Source of the DNA: Crocinitomicaceae bacterium
Lineage (GTDB): Bacteria; Bacteroidota; Bacteroidia; Flavobacteriales_D; Crocinitomicaceae
Assembly: GCA_023268965.1 (NCBI GenBank)
Contig: JALRJE010000091.1
Location: forward strand, 1-64,000
Reading direction: 5' to 3'
Length of the DNA: 64,000 nt
Part shown: positions 38,637-45,288 of the stretch, piece after piece
Position numbering within the stretch: the stretch's first letter is position 1
Layout: every line of letters begins with the position of its first letter
Notes under the pieces: model-generated
Databases searched by the model: none
The model's input: only the letters and a program-made list of their open reading frames with translations
What the model was told of the DNA's origin: nothing
Program-made: the position numbers and the translations under genes

Positions 38637-40817
38637 GTGAAAACTCCACTTAACTTTGATCAAAAACAAATGCGCCAACGTCTTATCCTGCTATTTATCA
38701 GCTTATTCGCTTTTGGTTGGGTGATTTTCAGCTCTTATGACTTGCTTTCCAATGAAAATCTAGTTGATTTCAAACGCTACTTCAACCATAAGGACCAAAC
38801 TGTTTATTTTATTCAAGACCAGGGTGCTTTTGATTGGGAGAACGAAGGGCTAGTTACCACTGAGCTCAACGAAAGCCTTTACTTTTCCATACGCAGACGC
38901 TGCAAAGAACCGCTGACGCTCTCTTTTAGTAAAAATTCCACCAAAATACTCGTTGAAAAGAAAGGCAACTGGACTAAAAAAGAAGTTCTAGACCTTTTTA
39001 ATAATGGATTATTTCCATTTGAAATGGGCAAGCTTAAAAGTTTTGAGTACGGTAAATTACATGGCCAATATAACCGAAACCAACTTTTGATTTACGAGGG
39101 TGAGTTGCCAGCGGCTGTGCCTTTCCACATTCAAATCAGTAGTAAGGCCAGTTACGCTTGGTTAAAATGGAGCAAAGATGGTCAAATTCGGCTCACTGAA
39201 ACCTACAAAAAGAAAGATGGATTTTATAGATATATTAAATACAAGAACCCAAATCCATCTTTAAGAAAAATAGACGATCAAGCCCTGTTTGCAACGGTGA
39301 CTCCTGATTTTTTCAAGCAGTATTTTTTCTACGAAAAAAATTATGCTCAACAACTCGACCCTAACTTTGTAAAAACACCTTGGCATAAATGTATCAACCG
39401 CGGTTTTGTACATTTAAAAAAAGACAGTTCCAGCCTCATTATTTTTGACTTTGAAGGCAACGCGCATCCGATTCAAACCCTCAACGAATTCTTCCAAAAA
39501 GAAGAACTCAATACCGAAAGTGCTGCTTTTTCCAATTTGTCATTTTCTAGTCTCGTTGACAAAAGCAAAAAGACTTGGTATGTTGGCGTTTTTGAGCAGT
39601 TTGGTTTTGCCAGTCCTAGCAAAGCACTGCTCGATGAATCTTTAGCTGCGGCTAGCCTCGGCCAAACCGTTGCTCAGAACGAAAACAAAGCGCAACGAAT
39701 TTATGCCAATATGCCCCGCAAAGTGAGTGCGCGCTGGGTAGATGCACTTCAGAAAACTACCGTCACCCTACTAGGTCAACAAATTCTAGAAACGAGCTAT
39801 CACAAGTCAAGTGCTCAAATTCAGCAAAATCAGGAAGAAATTCGCGATTATTTTGTCATGAATCCGGGTTTTAGGGTGATTCGCTTTGCTGCATTTGCCG
39901 AGCGAGGTAATGTCATTACTTTAAATGAAAACCATCAATTAGTTGGGTACATCAATGGCTTGCGCAAATGGGAAAAACCGCTCCAACAAGAGGTCAGCGA
40001 TCTTTACCAAATATCCGGAACAAGTGCACTGATTTGCGTTCAATTTGAACACGAAGCCCAACTTTACGATAAAACAGGAAGGCTTATATATCGCCTGACC
40101 CACGAAGCCGGCACCCGAGTTCAAGTCAATGAGAACAACGGCAAAAAAGAATTTATCTGTTCAAACGGTGGCGCAGCTGTTCAACTCGTCAACGAAAACG
40201 GAGCCGTAATTAAACAATTTAGCATCAGCGGAAAATTAAAAGACCTTTATAGCTTTAGGCAAAATGGAAAAACCTATGTCAGTATTTTAACGGACCAACA
40301 AATACAATTTATTGACCTGACTAAAAGAAAGCCAGCGACGAAGCAAAATGCAGATTCTACCTATGTTCTGATTGGCAACACCAATGCAGCCTTTGCCGTA
40401 AAAGTGCAAAATACCACTGCGACTGTATGTGCCCTTGAAGGCGCCAAACAATTTACAGTGCCTTCCAACGTTGAATGCATTGGGGCGTACCTACAATTGA
40501 ATCGCCAAATTCTCGTTTTTAAACGCAATAAATCAATTTTCGCCTTGGATACAAAAGGACAACGCATATGGGAAAAATCATTCAATGCCATTGAACTTAC
40601 TACGTTCAGTAGTTTTTATGGCCCCAACAAAAAGACCATGTTAAGTATTTTAGACGCCGTAGACAACCAAATCTACTTACTAGACGATGCAGGTCACAAC
40701 CTCGATACAGACAAGCGTCACGGCGAACAAGTTGTGCAACTCAGCGCCTTTGGCAATAATGCCTATTCAGTTACTACCTATCTCGGAAACTACATCATTC
40801 AATACACAAAACAATGA
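38637..40817 (+). CDS. single-pass membrane protein with beta-propeller-like C-terminal half, unknown function
   Basis: The 726-residue protein (GTG start at 38637) has one membrane helix at about residues 13-32 (RQRLILLFISLFAFGWVIFSS), so most of it should be periplasmic. Residues 50-380 resemble no family I can name. Residues about 390-726 show recurring short strand units such as LNENHQLVGYINGLRKWEKPL, YDKTGRLIYRLTHEAG, VNENGAVIKQFSISG and LDTKGQRIWEKSFNAI, which look like blades of a PQQ/WD40-type propeller. Its stop overlaps the start of the DUF5723/OmpA gene (ATGA at 40814), so the two are translationally coupled and probably act together at the envelope. Confidence 0.7.
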   Translation: MKTPLNFDQKQMRQRLILLFISLFAFGWVIFSSYDLLSNENLVDFKRYFNHKDQTVYFIQDQGAFDWENEGLVTTELNESLYFSIRRRCKEPLTLSFSKNSTKILVEKKGNWTKKEVLDLFNNGLFPFEMGKLKSFEYGKLHGQYNRNQLLIYEGELPAAVPFHIQISSKASYAWLKWSKDGQIRLTETYKKKDGFYRYIKYKNPNPSLRKIDDQALFATVTPDFFKQYFFYEKNYAQQLDPNFVKTPWHKCINRGFVHLKKDSSSLIIFDFEGNAHPIQTLNEFFQKEELNTESAAFSNLSFSSLVDKSKKTWYVGVFEQFGFASPSKALLDESLAAASLGQTVAQNENKAQRIYANMPRKVSARWVDALQKTTVTLLGQQILETSYHKSSAQIQQNQEEIRDYFVMNPGFRVIRFAAFAERGNVITLNENHQLVGYINGLRKWEKPLQQEVSDLYQISGTSALICVQFEHEAQLYDKTGRLIYRLTHEAGTRVQVNENNGKKEFICSNGGAAVQLVNENGAVIKQFSISGKLKDLYSFRQNGKTYVSILTDQQIQFIDLTKRKPATKQNADSTYVLIGNTNAAFAVKVQNTTATVCALEGAKQFTVPSNVECIGAYLQLNRQILVFKRNKSIFALDTKGQRIWEKSFNAIELTTFSSFYGPNKKTMLSILDAVDNQIYLLDDAGHNLDTDKRHGEQVVQLSAFGNNAYSVTTYLGNYIIQYTKQ

Positions 40818-43384
40818 GCAAAATCACCTTCACTTTTTTATTGATCATTTCTGGGCTTCAAGTGCAAGCACAGGCCTATCTTGGTGTTAACTCCAGTAAT
40901 TATGCAGGTGCACTAGGAAATTTAGTCAATCCTGCATCATTTGTAGATGGGCGGTACAAAATGGATCTTGCACTCCCTGCCCTCAATTTATTTACTTATC
41001 AAAACTTTGGTTCATTTAACGCCGACGCCATGCGCGCCGAACAAGGTGGCGAAGGCAATTGGTGGTACCGATCGTTTGCAGACACGGCCGTCTTGAATTC
41101 TTGGGCCTACCCCTCGTCTAGTTTCATCGATCGCTTAATTGTCCGCAACTACAGCCCCTCTTCATCGGGCGTTTTAGGGGCAAATATCAACTTTAGATTG
41201 GATCTCTTCAATTTAGCATTTCATATCGGTGAAAAGAAGTCACTGGGTTTTTACGCAAATCTGCGCTCAATTACCAACGTAGACAATATGGATCCTAAAT
41301 TAGCCGTACTCTCAGAAGCGGGTCTAGAATACCCTGCTTTATGGAACATACAACTCAATGAAGAGCTCGTCAATGTGAATCACCTCACGTGGAGTGAAAT
41401 CGGATTCAACTACAGCCAAGTGCTGATCGACAACAAAGAACATTTTTTAAAAATCGGTATCAGCCCGAAAGTTTTACTAGGTTTTGCAAGTGCCTATGTA
41501 CATACCGAAAATTTCAGCTACAACCTCATCAACGAAGATACCTCTCAATATTTAGCAGGTACTTTTGACTACGGTTACTCCAAAGAAGTAGGCGATTTTA
41601 TTACTGCGGGTGTCAACGGACAAATTAACGAGAATAACATCTCCTCTTATCTCAAACCCGGTTCAATGGGAATTGGTCTTGATTTAGGTGCTGTATACGA
41701 ATGGCGTCCGAACTATGCAAAATACAAATACGATATGGACGGCAAAACCGACCTCTGGATGCGCAATGAAAATAAATACAAAGCAAGAGTTGGGCTTTCT
41801 ATTTTGGACATGGGAGGAATGAAGTTCACTAAAGGGGGGCTCAGCCGAAACTTTGTAGTCAATTCAAATGCGTTTTTCGATCTCCGTCGTTTTGATAGCG
41901 CAACTGATCTGGAGACTTTTGATATGGTCATCGATTCTTTAATCAATGAATCGACAGCAGCTAACAACACAGAATGGTTTGCCTTACAAGATCCATCTCA
42001 AACCTACCGGATGCGTACCCCAACTGCCCTTAGCCTGCAGCTCGACTACCATATTTGGAGTTATTTCTACCTCAATGCCACAGCAATGGTCAATATGATT
42101 CCTAAAAACAAGGACACCAAAGTAAATATAGCTAGTCAATTTTCTTTGACGCCTAGCTTCGACAGCCCTTATTTTGGACTTTATCTACCTATCGCCTATA
42201 ATCAATACAGTGGTTTGCGAGGCGGTTTAGCCACCCGAATAGGCCCAGTTATTCTCGGGCTCAACGACCTCAATTTAATACGTGCCCAAAACCAAATTAG
42301 TGGTGTAGACTTTTACGTAGGGACGCGTCTACCCATTCTGTACCACCGTGTAAAAGATAAAGATAAAGACAAGGTATCAGACAAAATGGACGAATGCAAA
42401 AATGTGCCCGGAGTATGGGCCTTCTTAGGCTGCCCAGATACCGACGGCGACGGTATTCCAGACTCAGAAGATGCCTGTGTAACCGTTGCTGGCCTCAAAG
42501 AATTTAAAGGTTGCCCAGATACCGATGGTGACAAAATAATCGACAGCGAAGATGCTTGCCCAACGGTTGCCGGCCTCAAAGAATTCAAAGGTTGCCCAGA
42601 CACCGATGGAGATAAAATCATCGATAGCGAAGATGCCTGTCCTACTATAGCGGGCGTTGTAGCACTCAAAGGTTGCCCTGACCGCGATGCCGATGGCATT
42701 ACGGATGCTGACGATGTGTGTCCTGACAACGCTGGCCCCAAAGAAAATCAAGGTTGCCCAGATCAAGATGCCGATGGCCTTTATGACTTTGTAGACAACT
42801 GCCCAGAGGTAGCAGGGCCGAAAGAAAACCAAGGTTGCCCATGGCCAGATACCGATGGCGACGGCTTGCTCGACAAAGACGACGACTGCCCTAAACTCGC
42901 AGGGCCAAAAGCCAATAGAGGTTGCCCATATAAAGACTCTGACAACGATGGCCTACTCGATAAAGACGACGACTGCCCCAATACCCCGGGTCCAAAATCA
43001 AATAAGGGTTGCCCAGTCATTGAACAAGCGGTAATTGAAGTACTCAAAACGGCATTTGACAATTTAGAATTTGAAACCAATAAAGACGTGATTTTTGAAA
43101 GCTCTAAGCCATCGCTCGATGAGCTAGCAGAAGTTCTCAAAAAGAAAACGACTTGGAAACTCGAAATTACTGGCCACACCGATAACGTTGGGGACGACAA
43201 CCTGAATTTAGCGCTCTCTAAAAAACGTGCAGAGGCACTCAAGGCATATTTGATGATCCAAGGCGTAGAAGAGTTTCGTTTACTTACACTGTACTTTGGC
43301 GAAACCAAACCGATTGCCACAAACGATACGCCGGAAGGCCGTCAGAAGAACCGACGCGTCGAAATGAAAATTGTTTTTGAATAA
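40814..43384 (+). CDS. DUF5723 outer-membrane protein with thrombospondin type 3 repeats and OmpA domain
   Basis: The 856-residue protein has a signal peptide (TFTFLLIISGLQVQAQA). Residues about 20-500 match the DUF5723 barrel-like family (YLGVNSSNYAGALGNLVNPASFVDGRYKMD). Residues about 514-735 contain eight thrombospondin type 3 units (DTDGDGIPDSEDAC type), Ca-binding and usually rigid; two adjacent units are nearly identical at protein level over an 81-bp period. Residues about 740-856 form an OmpA C-terminal peptidoglycan-binding domain (EFETNKDVIFESSKPSLDELAEVL, EITGHTDNVGDDNLNLALSKKRAEALKAYL, NRRVEMKI). It would link an outer-membrane barrel to peptidoglycan. A terminator follows. Confidence 0.88.
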   Translation: MSKITFTFLLIISGLQVQAQAYLGVNSSNYAGALGNLVNPASFVDGRYKMDLALPALNLFTYQNFGSFNADAMRAEQGGEGNWWYRSFADTAVLNSWAYPSSSFIDRLIVRNYSPSSSGVLGANINFRLDLFNLAFHIGEKKSLGFYANLRSITNVDNMDPKLAVLSEAGLEYPALWNIQLNEELVNVNHLTWSEIGFNYSQVLIDNKEHFLKIGISPKVLLGFASAYVHTENFSYNLINEDTSQYLAGTFDYGYSKEVGDFITAGVNGQINENNISSYLKPGSMGIGLDLGAVYEWRPNYAKYKYDMDGKTDLWMRNENKYKARVGLSILDMGGMKFTKGGLSRNFVVNSNAFFDLRRFDSATDLETFDMVIDSLINESTAANNTEWFALQDPSQTYRMRTPTALSLQLDYHIWSYFYLNATAMVNMIPKNKDTKVNIASQFSLTPSFDSPYFGLYLPIAYNQYSGLRGGLATRIGPVILGLNDLNLIRAQNQISGVDFYVGTRLPILYHRVKDKDKDKVSDKMDECKNVPGVWAFLGCPDTDGDGIPDSEDACVTVAGLKEFKGCPDTDGDKIIDSEDACPTVAGLKEFKGCPDTDGDKIIDSEDACPTIAGVVALKGCPDRDADGITDADDVCPDNAGPKENQGCPDQDADGLYDFVDNCPEVAGPKENQGCPWPDTDGDGLLDKDDDCPKLAGPKANRGCPYKDSDNDGLLDKDDDCPNTPGPKSNKGCPVIEQAVIEVLKTAFDNLEFETNKDVIFESSKPSLDELAEVLKKKTTWKLEITGHTDNVGDDNLNLALSKKRAEALKAYLMIQGVEEFRLLTLYFGETKPIATNDTPEGRQKNRRVEMKIVFE
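42499..42660 (+). repeat. two near-identical 81-bp units in the TSP3 region
   Basis: The unit coding for 27 residues from GLKEFKGCPDTDGDK to CPTVA occurs twice in tandem (about 42490-42570 and 42571-42651), identical at almost every residue but with several synonymous differences, so the duplication is not very recent. Confidence 0.7.
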
Positions 43385-43404
43385 GCTTTCAAAAATTCTC
43401 AACA

Positions 43405-43433
43405 ATAAAGGGAAGTCTTAGGTTTCCCTTTAT
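43405..43433 (+). terminator. hairpin terminator after the OmpA-family gene
   Basis: ATAAAGGGAA (43405-43414) and TTCCCTTTAT (43424-43433) form a perfect 10-bp stem with a 9-nt loop, 20 bases after the stop codon. The T-tract is part of the stem and is followed by ATTAATTTAAT, so efficiency is uncertain. Confidence 0.75.
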
Positions 43434-43434
43434 A

Positions 43435-43493
43435 TTAATTTAATGTTAATTAATGGTATAAATGAATTAATGCTTATTTAATCATTGATTAAT
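43435..43493 (+). promoter_or_regulatory. 11-bp-phased TTAAT direct-repeat array upstream of the phoB-like gene
   Basis: TTAAT begins at 43435, 43446, 43467, 43478 and 43489; the intervening register (43457) holds the degenerate TATAA and one unit is 10 rather than 11 bp. The spacing of one helical turn is what OmpR/PhoB-type regulators bind (compare the 11-bp period of the Pho box). The array ends 21 bp before a GACCTTTG element, the likely -7 of the regulator gene that follows. Autoregulation is the natural inference. Confidence 0.6.
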
Positions 43494-43514
43494 GAAGTCA
43501 TTAGATTTCGAAGT

Positions 43515-43522
43515 GACCTTTG
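43515..43522 (+). promoter_or_regulatory. probable -7 element GACCTTTG of the response regulator/kinase pair
   Basis: One mismatch to TAnnTTTG; predicted start near 43526, 15 bases before the ATG at 43541. No TTTG lies at -33, as expected if a bound activator on the TTAAT array substitutes for it. Confidence 0.4.
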
Positions 43523-43540
43523 TATTCTAAAATTAGGATA

Positions 43541-44221
43541 ATGGAAAACACAAAAGGCCACACCATACTCATTGTAGATGACGAGCCAGACATCCTCGAA
43601 TTTCTCTCTTACAACGTTCGCAAAGAAGGCTATAAAGTGTTTACAGCGAGTAACGGCATTGAAGCACTGCGCTTAGTGCAGCAAATCAATCCATCCTTAA
43701 TTCTTTTAGACGTAATGATGCCCAAAATGGATGGCATCGAAACGTGTCAGGTGATCAGAAAAGACCTCAATATGGTTCAGCCGGTCATTGCCTTCTTAAC
43801 GGCCAGAACAGAAGACTACGCGCAAATTGCCGGTTTTGAAGCAGGTGCCGACGACTACATCAGTAAACCCATCAGACCACGTTTACTCATTAGCAAAATT
43901 GAATCTTTATTGCGCCGCCTCAAAAATAAAGCTGGTGCAGAAGGCACAGCAAATATCGTTATCGATAGAGATCGCTACATGGTAGAGCTTGAAGGTAAAG
44001 AACTTCAATTGCCAAAAAAAGAATTTGAACTATTAGAATTACTTGCAAGCCGCCCTGGTAAGGTTTTTAACCGCGATCAAATTTTAGCTGTAGTTTGGGG
44101 TAACGACACCATAGTAGGTGAGCGCACCATCGATGTTCATATTAGAAAATTGCGCGAAAAACTTGGAGATACGTATATTCGTACCATAAAAGGCGTCGGA
44201 TATACCTTCAATGAAAAGTGA
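43541..44221 (+). CDS. PhoB/OmpR-type response regulator
   Basis: The 226-residue protein has a receiver domain with IVDDEPDILEFL, phosphoacceptor Asp57 in LILLDVMMPKMDGIE, Thr in FLTARTED and Lys in ADDYISKPI, and a C-terminal winged helix (about 128-225) with LPKKEFELLELLASRPGKVFNRDQIL, GERTIDVHIRKLREKLGD and IKGVGYTF. It is closest in look to PhoB/PhoP. A TTG-initiated extension to 43520 exists but would overlap the promoter, so ATG 43541 is used. The stop overlaps the kinase start (GTGA at 44218), so the pair is one operon. The TTAAT array upstream suggests self-regulation. Confidence 0.93.
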   Translation: MENTKGHTILIVDDEPDILEFLSYNVRKEGYKVFTASNGIEALRLVQQINPSLILLDVMMPKMDGIETCQVIRKDLNMVQPVIAFLTARTEDYAQIAGFEAGADDYISKPIRPRLLISKIESLLRRLKNKAGAEGTANIVIDRDRYMVELEGKELQLPKKEFELLELLASRPGKVFNRDQILAVVWGNDTIVGERTIDVHIRKLREKLGDTYIRTIKGVGYTFNEK

Positions 44222-45288
44222 GAAAAGCTAGACCAAGTTTCTTAGTTTTAAGTGGCAGTATTCTATTTTATGTATTGAGTTTCCTCTTTACACTCTTCGT
44301 GCACCTTCAAATTGTCACGTTAAGCAATACCCTCATTTTTTTAATACCCCTCGTTACTGGAATTTTTGCCTACACCATTTTTTACTACATCATCAAACGC
44401 TTTTTGCAATACCGCATGAGTTTGATTTATAGAAGTATTCAAAATATGGATGCCGAAAAAAGAACGGATCAAACCATAGATCAGCTTGTTGATCAAGGAG
44501 AAGAAGACGTTAAAGAGTGGAAACAAAAACGAAATCTCGAAATTGAAAAGCTAAAAGAACAAGCTGCTTTTCGAAAAGAATTTTTAGGTAACCTCGCCCA
44601 CGAACTCAAAACACCCGTTTTTTCTATCCAAGGATACATCGATTCTTTGCTAGATGGAGGTATGGAAGATCCTGAGGTACTCAAAACTTTTTTAGAGCGC
44701 GCATCAAAATCAACAGAGCGCATGACCCATATCTTAGAAGACCTAGATCAGCTCACTAAACTAGAAATAGAGCGCATTCCATTAGACATCAGAAGTTTTG
44801 ACTTACTGGACCTCGTCAAAGAATCCTTTGAAGCTTTGGAGCTCATTGCCAATGAAAAACGTTACAGATTAAGGATAGAAGTAGCTGACCCTTTTTGCTA
44901 TGTCAATGCCGATCGAAATAAAATTGCTCAAGTTCTCATTAATTTGTCTACCAATGCCATTGCCTACGGAAAAGATGGTGGAGAAATGTGCATCAATATT
45001 GTTCAAATCGACGATACCTATAACATTCAATTGAAAGATGATGGACCTGGAATTGAACCACAGCACCTTCCTCGCCTTTTTGAGCGTTTCTACAGAGTTG
45101 AAAAAAGTCGGAACAGAAACGAAGGCGGTTCGGGCTTAGGGTTGGCTATTGTCAAGCATATTATTGAATCGCACGGCCAACAAATTCAGGTAGCGAGTTC
45201 TTTTGGTGTTGGTACAACCTTTACTTTTAGCCTTGAAAAAAGCAAAGCACTGGGCCCAGTGAGTTCAAGAGGGATTCCGTTGAAATAA
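44218..45288 (+). CDS. sensor histidine kinase, PhoR-like
   Basis: The 356-residue kinase starts at GTG 44218. Two membrane helices (about residues 8-30 and 37-60) are separated by only a few residues, so there is no periplasmic sensor domain; a coiled-coil (about 70-120) leads to the HisKA domain with phosphorylated His128 in FLGNLAHELKTPVFSIQGY. The ATPase domain has the N box (IAQVLINLSTNAIAYG), G1 (LKDDGPGIEP), F box (LPRLFERFYRVEKSRNR) and G2 (GGSGLGLAIVKHI). Lack of a sensor domain suggests that the signal comes through a membrane or cytosolic partner, as for PhoR with PstSCAB-PhoU. Those partners are not in the window. Confidence 0.93.
   Translation: MRKARPSFLVLSGSILFYVLSFLFTLFVHLQIVTLSNTLIFLIPLVTGIFAYTIFYYIIKRFLQYRMSLIYRSIQNMDAEKRTDQTIDQLVDQGEEDVKEWKQKRNLEIEKLKEQAAFRKEFLGNLAHELKTPVFSIQGYIDSLLDGGMEDPEVLKTFLERASKSTERMTHILEDLDQLTKLEIERIPLDIRSFDLLDLVKESFEALELIANEKRYRLRIEVADPFCYVNADRNKIAQVLINLSTNAIAYGKDGGEMCINIVQIDDTYNIQLKDDGPGIEPQHLPRLFERFYRVEKSRNRNEGGSGLGLAIVKHIIESHGQQIQVASSFGVGTTFTFSLEKSKALGPVSSRGIPLK

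Follow-up and report, generated by a model that had tools for sequence, protein, structure and literature searches.

A tandem array of TTAAT repeats lies upstream of a two-component operon in the genome of a Crocinitomicaceae bacterium. Is this array an operator, and if so, which regulator acts through it and to which signal does it respond? The window analysed here is a stretch of 64,000 nucleotides (contig JALRJE010000091.1). The array is a real, conserved regulatory element. It is probably the operator at which a PhoB/PhoP-like regulator controls its own, activator-dependent promoter, the signal being most likely phosphate shortage. Switches of this kind are already known, and the present one belongs to a little-studied group of Bacteroidota; the array provides a concrete, testable candidate operator for probable phosphate control in that phylum.

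Structure of the array and its promoter

The array is composed of five TTAAT half-sites, all of which are exact at the positions assigned to them in the preliminary description (Table 1). Two additional off-register copies, at 43440 and 43450, bring the number to seven TTAAT per 59 bp; elsewhere in the window, a 65-bp stretch contains at most two on the same strand. Among 5000 dinucleotide shuffles of the intergenic sequence 43385-43540, none reaches seven TTAAT, none reaches three pairs at 11 bp, and the triple is found in 0.02%.

Table 1. Features of the array region in window coordinates; promoter counts refer to the congeneric alignment described in the text.
Feature	Coordinates	Strand	Remarks
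ompA-like gene	40814..43384	+	PF00691 and PF18990; upstream of the array; adjoins the array in relatives, locus marker
Terminator-like hairpin	43405..43433	+	follows the ompA-like gene and immediately precedes the array
Distal half-site 1, TTAAT	43435..43439	+	-32 from core; TTAA there in 10 of 21 promoters
Distal half-site 2, TTAAT	43446..43450	+	-21 from core; TTAA there in 13 of 21 promoters
Core half-site 1, TTAAT	43467..43471	+	exact match; aligned in 21 promoters
Core half-site 2, TTAAT	43478..43482	+	exact match; aligned in 21 promoters
Core half-site 3, TTAAT	43489..43493	+	occupies the expected -33 place, as deduced from TTTG/TANNTTTG promoters (PMC6847099)
-7 element GACCTTTG	43514-43521	+	CTTTG or TTTTG equidistant from core half-site 3 in 21 of 21 promoters
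Response regulator, receiver and OmpR/PhoB-type winged helix	43541..44221	+	PF00072 and PF00486 over cut-off
Histidine kinase	44218..45288	+	PF00512 and PF02518 over cut-off; 4-bp overlap with the regulator gene

The 11-bp phasing holds within the distal pair (43435/43446) and within the core triple (43467/43478/43489), each of which has the Pho-box layout of at least two direct-repeat units with an 11-bp period. However, the single degenerate register that had been proposed between them conceals a phase shift of one base: the step from 43446 to 43467 is 21 bp and not 22. The array is therefore of a 2+3 type with a 21-bp step, without an unbroken 11-bp register. The 21-bp step is seen again in the promoters of relatives. 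The half-site itself is TTAAY and does not match CTGTCAT, the half-site of the E. coli Pho box.

The Bacteroidota -7 consensus is TAHHTTTG (PMC6847099). The element GACCTTTG agrees with it at five of six key letters, lacking T-12, and its position is conserved. The preliminary description had the array end about 21 bp before a -7 element without a good -33 partner. The last repeat stands at the -33 place, with a gap of 20 bp between it and the -7 element. This gap is constant in 21 promoters, and the last site is thus positioned to replace or overlap the upstream promoter element, as in a Pho box. Bacteroidota promoters differ from textbook ones in general.

A genome search for phased TTAAT triples, suggested in the preliminary description, singles out the array only in its strict form. 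Three exact TTAAT at 11 bp occur once in the 2.05-Mb genome, namely in the window array, but triples with two mismatches number 23 against 26 for the reversed-pattern control. In the absence of an excess of degenerate triples over the control, no large regulon is claimed. The same counts would suit a chance cluster in AT-rich intergenic DNA, a reading that is contradicted by the shuffles, the conservation and the fixed spacing and has a negligible probability.

The regulator and kinase genes

The array is preceded by a hairpin with an RNA folding energy of -12.5 kcal/mol (z -4.1; no shuffle equally stable) and followed by the regulator and kinase genes. The regulator is of the OmpR/PhoB type, with scores of 98.5 bits for PF00072 and 88.3 bits for PF00486 (Trans_reg_C). 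A PAS domain is absent among the domain matches of the kinase. The operon had been called PhoB/PhoR-like. The regulator is best matched by the PhoB models of NCBIfam, and the kinase by PnpS and PhoR models. All of these models score below their cut-offs: NF053854 with 204.1 versus 270 bits and TIGR02154 with 201.3 versus 296.2 bits for the regulator, and, among the PhoR models, TIGR02966 with 229.7 versus 334.2 bits and NF053855 with 173.3 versus 500 bits for the kinase. For this reason, the two proteins are designated PhoB/PhoP-like and PhoR-like.

The genome encodes at least three further regulators of similar length and type, one of them 56% identical, and the array could be bound by one of these, in which case it would not be autoregulatory. 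Against this, array and regulator operon stay together in 31 genomes of the genus, the gene of the nearest paralogue is not preceded by an array, and binding to its own operon is reported for the counterpart in Riemerella (PMC9603813). Binding by another regulator of the family is thus very unlikely.

Conservation in congeneric genomes

Orthologues of the regulator (E <= 1e-80) are found in 53 of 61 congeneric genomes. Among the loci read, the array lies directly 5' of the regulator only in the window species and in the genomes G035, G013, and G024. The other loci read have a terminator about 20 bp 5' of the regulator start codon and a different upstream gene. Conservation in relatives had been set beforehand as a test of the array, and the immediate upstream regions, mostly without an array, would suggest that it is not conserved. 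This appearance is misleading, as two genes separate the promoter from the regulator in most congeners. An exact search for TTAAY-N6-TTAAY-N6-TTAAY over the same genomes places an array 5' of the regulator gene in 31 of them, with the two sharing strand and contig. The distance is 47-66 bp in seven genomes and 4.7-6.4 kb in the remainder, where the array stands at the operon head. The search yields 104 matches versus 54 for the reversed control, near-palindromic matches being scored on both strands.

Those congener loci read in which both genes are complete have the order ompA, array, TonB receptor, T9SS-secreted protein, terminator, regulator, and kinase. The receptor is about 949 residues long, and the secreted protein, which carries a T9SS sorting domain, mostly about 848. 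The receptor and secreted-protein genes are missing from the locus in the window species, G035, G013, and G024. Natural variants thus exist within the genus: one promoter leads into only the regulator and kinase genes in some species, and in others into a long operon that also encodes receptor and secreted protein.

Twenty-one congeneric promoters were aligned on the core triple. With the core sites at 0, 11, and 22, CTTTG or TTTTG stands at +29 from the third site in every promoter. The identity between promoter pairs is 61% in the distal half-sites, 89% in the -7 element, and 42% in the spacers; the first two were not part of the pattern by which the promoters were found. The core triple is 91% identical, a value that is partly by construction, since the triple was the search pattern. 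A pattern of two half-sites at the fixed distance to YTTTGY gives 54 matches versus 32 for the control, and in many genomes the single match is the array promoter of the regulator operon.

In the long-operon congeners (L167, L169-L172, and others), only about 20 bp separate the end of the terminator-like hairpin from the regulator start codon, too little for a promoter. Expression of the regulator in these species may rely on read-through of transcripts from the array promoter, and the terminator may keep the regulator level below that of the receptor.

The window locus (40814-45288) and that of G054 (L167) are about 95% identical in the ompA and regulator-kinase DNA and 59% identical in the array region, and G054 contains two extra genes. 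In the array region, the window has a higher identity to G035 (79%), the more distant of the two, than to G054. Judged from these alignments, the promoter and the two genes look like a block that was exchanged or lost between close species.

Exact TTAAY triples in congeners are also located 5' of secreted-protein genes and, in two species, 5' of a putative adenine glycosylase gene (L190, L194, L201, L204, L191, and L192). These triples may reflect either regulon membership or chance. No clear array is seen in the 126 bases read upstream of a distant homologue pair of the TonB receptor and secreted protein on contig C66 of the own genome.

Arrays at phosphate transport genes

Several congeners (L187-L189, L202, and L203) contain arrays 5' of a gene pair encoding DUF47 (PF01865) and the PHO4/PitA transporter (PF01384), and one (L193) has an array 5' of a Na/Pi cotransporter with a PhoU domain. 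Presence at other phosphate genes, a further feature of a Pho box, is thus seen in the congeners. The divergent neighbour of the DUF47-PitA pair is a porin-like gene in these congeners; its equivalent next to DUF47 in the own genome encodes a phosphate-selective porin O/P (PF07396). The phosphate genes of the own genome have only a weaker box, which lies near DUF47. Of 30 congeneric upstream regions, 19 carry a block, GTTATGTTTACGTTA, near the pit promoter, and so does the own genome. Where a TAnnTTTG element was found, the block is 41-42 bp from it. This spacing from the -7 element is unlike the one in the operon promoter, so the block lends weaker support.

On contig C28 of the own genome (L247), TTAAC repeats and a conserved GTTATGTTTACGTTAAC block lie between the divergent porin and DUF47 genes. 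The DUF47 gene there runs past the contig end.

PhoU (PF01895) has no match in the own genome, which is 95% complete, and is present in 9 of the 61 genomes of the genus search. The own genome therefore does not display the PhoU of a classical Pst/PhoU-controlled Pho system. Phosphate depletion in F. johnsoniae raises PhoB together with a TonB receptor and a secreted lipoprotein from the same cluster (PMC8115612), a gene set much like that of the long operon.

These data bear on whether the array is an OmpR-family autoregulatory operator that serves a signal other than phosphate, for example redox or envelope stress. Such a signal would be in line with the scores of regulator and kinase below the PhoB and PhoR cut-offs, with the lack of PhoU in the own genome, and with the PhoP motif of R. 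anatipestifer, which its authors describe as ArcA-like while discussing stress roles (PMC9603813). It is less easily reconciled with the congener arrays at the DUF47-PitA and Na/Pi-PhoU genes and with operon partners similar to those of the phosphate-induced F. johnsoniae cluster (PMC8115612). A signal other than phosphate is thus unlikely, and phosphate shortage is retained as the probable one.

A model of autoregulation and comparison with known systems

In the proposed mechanism, the regulator (43541-44221) would be phosphorylated by its kinase and stack head to tail on TTAAY half-sites spaced by 11 bp, occupying the two distal sites and, after the 21-bp step, the three core sites. At the last core site, which would stand in for the missing -33 element, it would contact RNA polymerase and recruit it to the weak GACCTTTG. 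The regulator would thereby activate its own operon, most likely upon phosphate shortage. In most congeners, the equivalent promoter would drive the TonB receptor, the secreted protein, the terminator, the regulator, and the kinase. The window species has neither of the first two genes, and its array would act, by the same model, directly before the regulator.

The closest parallel in layout is the Pho box of PhoB/PhoP in E. coli, Streptomyces, and others, which likewise consists of 11-nt direct repeats bound head to tail by an OmpR/PhoB-type protein at phosphate genes (PMC4415409); binding to the window array is a prediction. The half-sites differ, TTAAY here versus CTGTCAT or GTTCACC, although the Pho-box consensus varies between species (PMC4415409). 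The window array further differs in its five half-sites with a 21-bp step and in its Bacteroidota-type -7 element.

PhoP of R. anatipestifer, also of the Flavobacteriales, binds upstream of its own operon and has the motif core TTTAACA (PMC9603813). It is similar to the window system in motif and self-operon site and is likened to it without a claim of orthology. The accessible part of its description contains no 11-bp multi-repeat array, unlike the window. The E. coli ArcA sites share the multi-repeat layout and the spacing: most of them comprise three to five direct repeats, with a spacing that is mostly 11 bp but can also be 22 bp (PMC3798270). More than two half-sites are therefore not unusual for the family, contrary to what had been supposed at first. 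ArcA differs in that it mostly represses, and in regulator, signal, and promoter type. The F. johnsoniae phoBR cluster places PhoB and PhoR beside a TonB receptor and a secreted lipoprotein. In the congeners, genes of these kinds make up a single operon, their secreted proteins being likened by kind only, whereas neither receptor nor secreted protein is encoded at this position in the window species.

The repeat signal across Bacteroidota

The upstream regions of homologous regulators across Bacteroidota (73 non-redundant regions) contain 17 TTAA[CT] pairs at 11 bp and 12 at 22 bp, compared with 0.7 each after shuffling. No other spacing from 5 to 35 bp exceeds six. Promoters of F. johnsoniae commonly have AT-rich motifs on successive helical turns 5' of the -7 element (PMC6847099), and the array might accordingly be such a phased element that bends DNA or contacts polymerase without a specific activator. 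However, AAAA and TTTA show no 11- or 22-bp peak in the same regions, and TTAAY is retained in the promoters while equally placed spacers drift, making this alternative highly improbable. The preliminary assignment as a PhoB/OmpR-type direct-repeat operator at an activator-type promoter is supported at the sequence level by the fixed -7 spacing in 21 promoters, the 11/22-bp signal in the phylum, and the congener arrays at phosphate transport genes. Counting against phosphate-responsive autoregulation are the sub-cut-off PhoB and PhoR scores, the lack of PhoU, the absence of a genome-wide excess of degenerate triples, the differing distance of the pit box, and a scattered label on the regulator tree.

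On that tree, the array label appears in 27 of 81 rows with 17 changes, a pattern that fits regulators not first in their operon and also fits site turnover. No published description of a Bacteroidota Pho box was found in the literature search. A wider picture may be put forward tentatively, though it is rather doubtful: a TTAAY Pho box in the form of a two-block array could extend across Bacteroidota, and the Pho system of the genus could operate mostly without PhoU, with the PitA-adjacent, PhoU-related DUF47 taking over PhoU feedback on the kinase.

Some sequences group unexpectedly with respect to their titles. Metagenome-assembled genomes (MAGs) titled Chryseobacterium gleum or Chitinophaga pinensis (L058, L066, L113, and L128) encode a regulator grouping with Crocinitomicaceae-like sequences, and the regulator of a Glaciecola-titled chromosome (L068) is nearly identical to that of a Fluviicola MAG.
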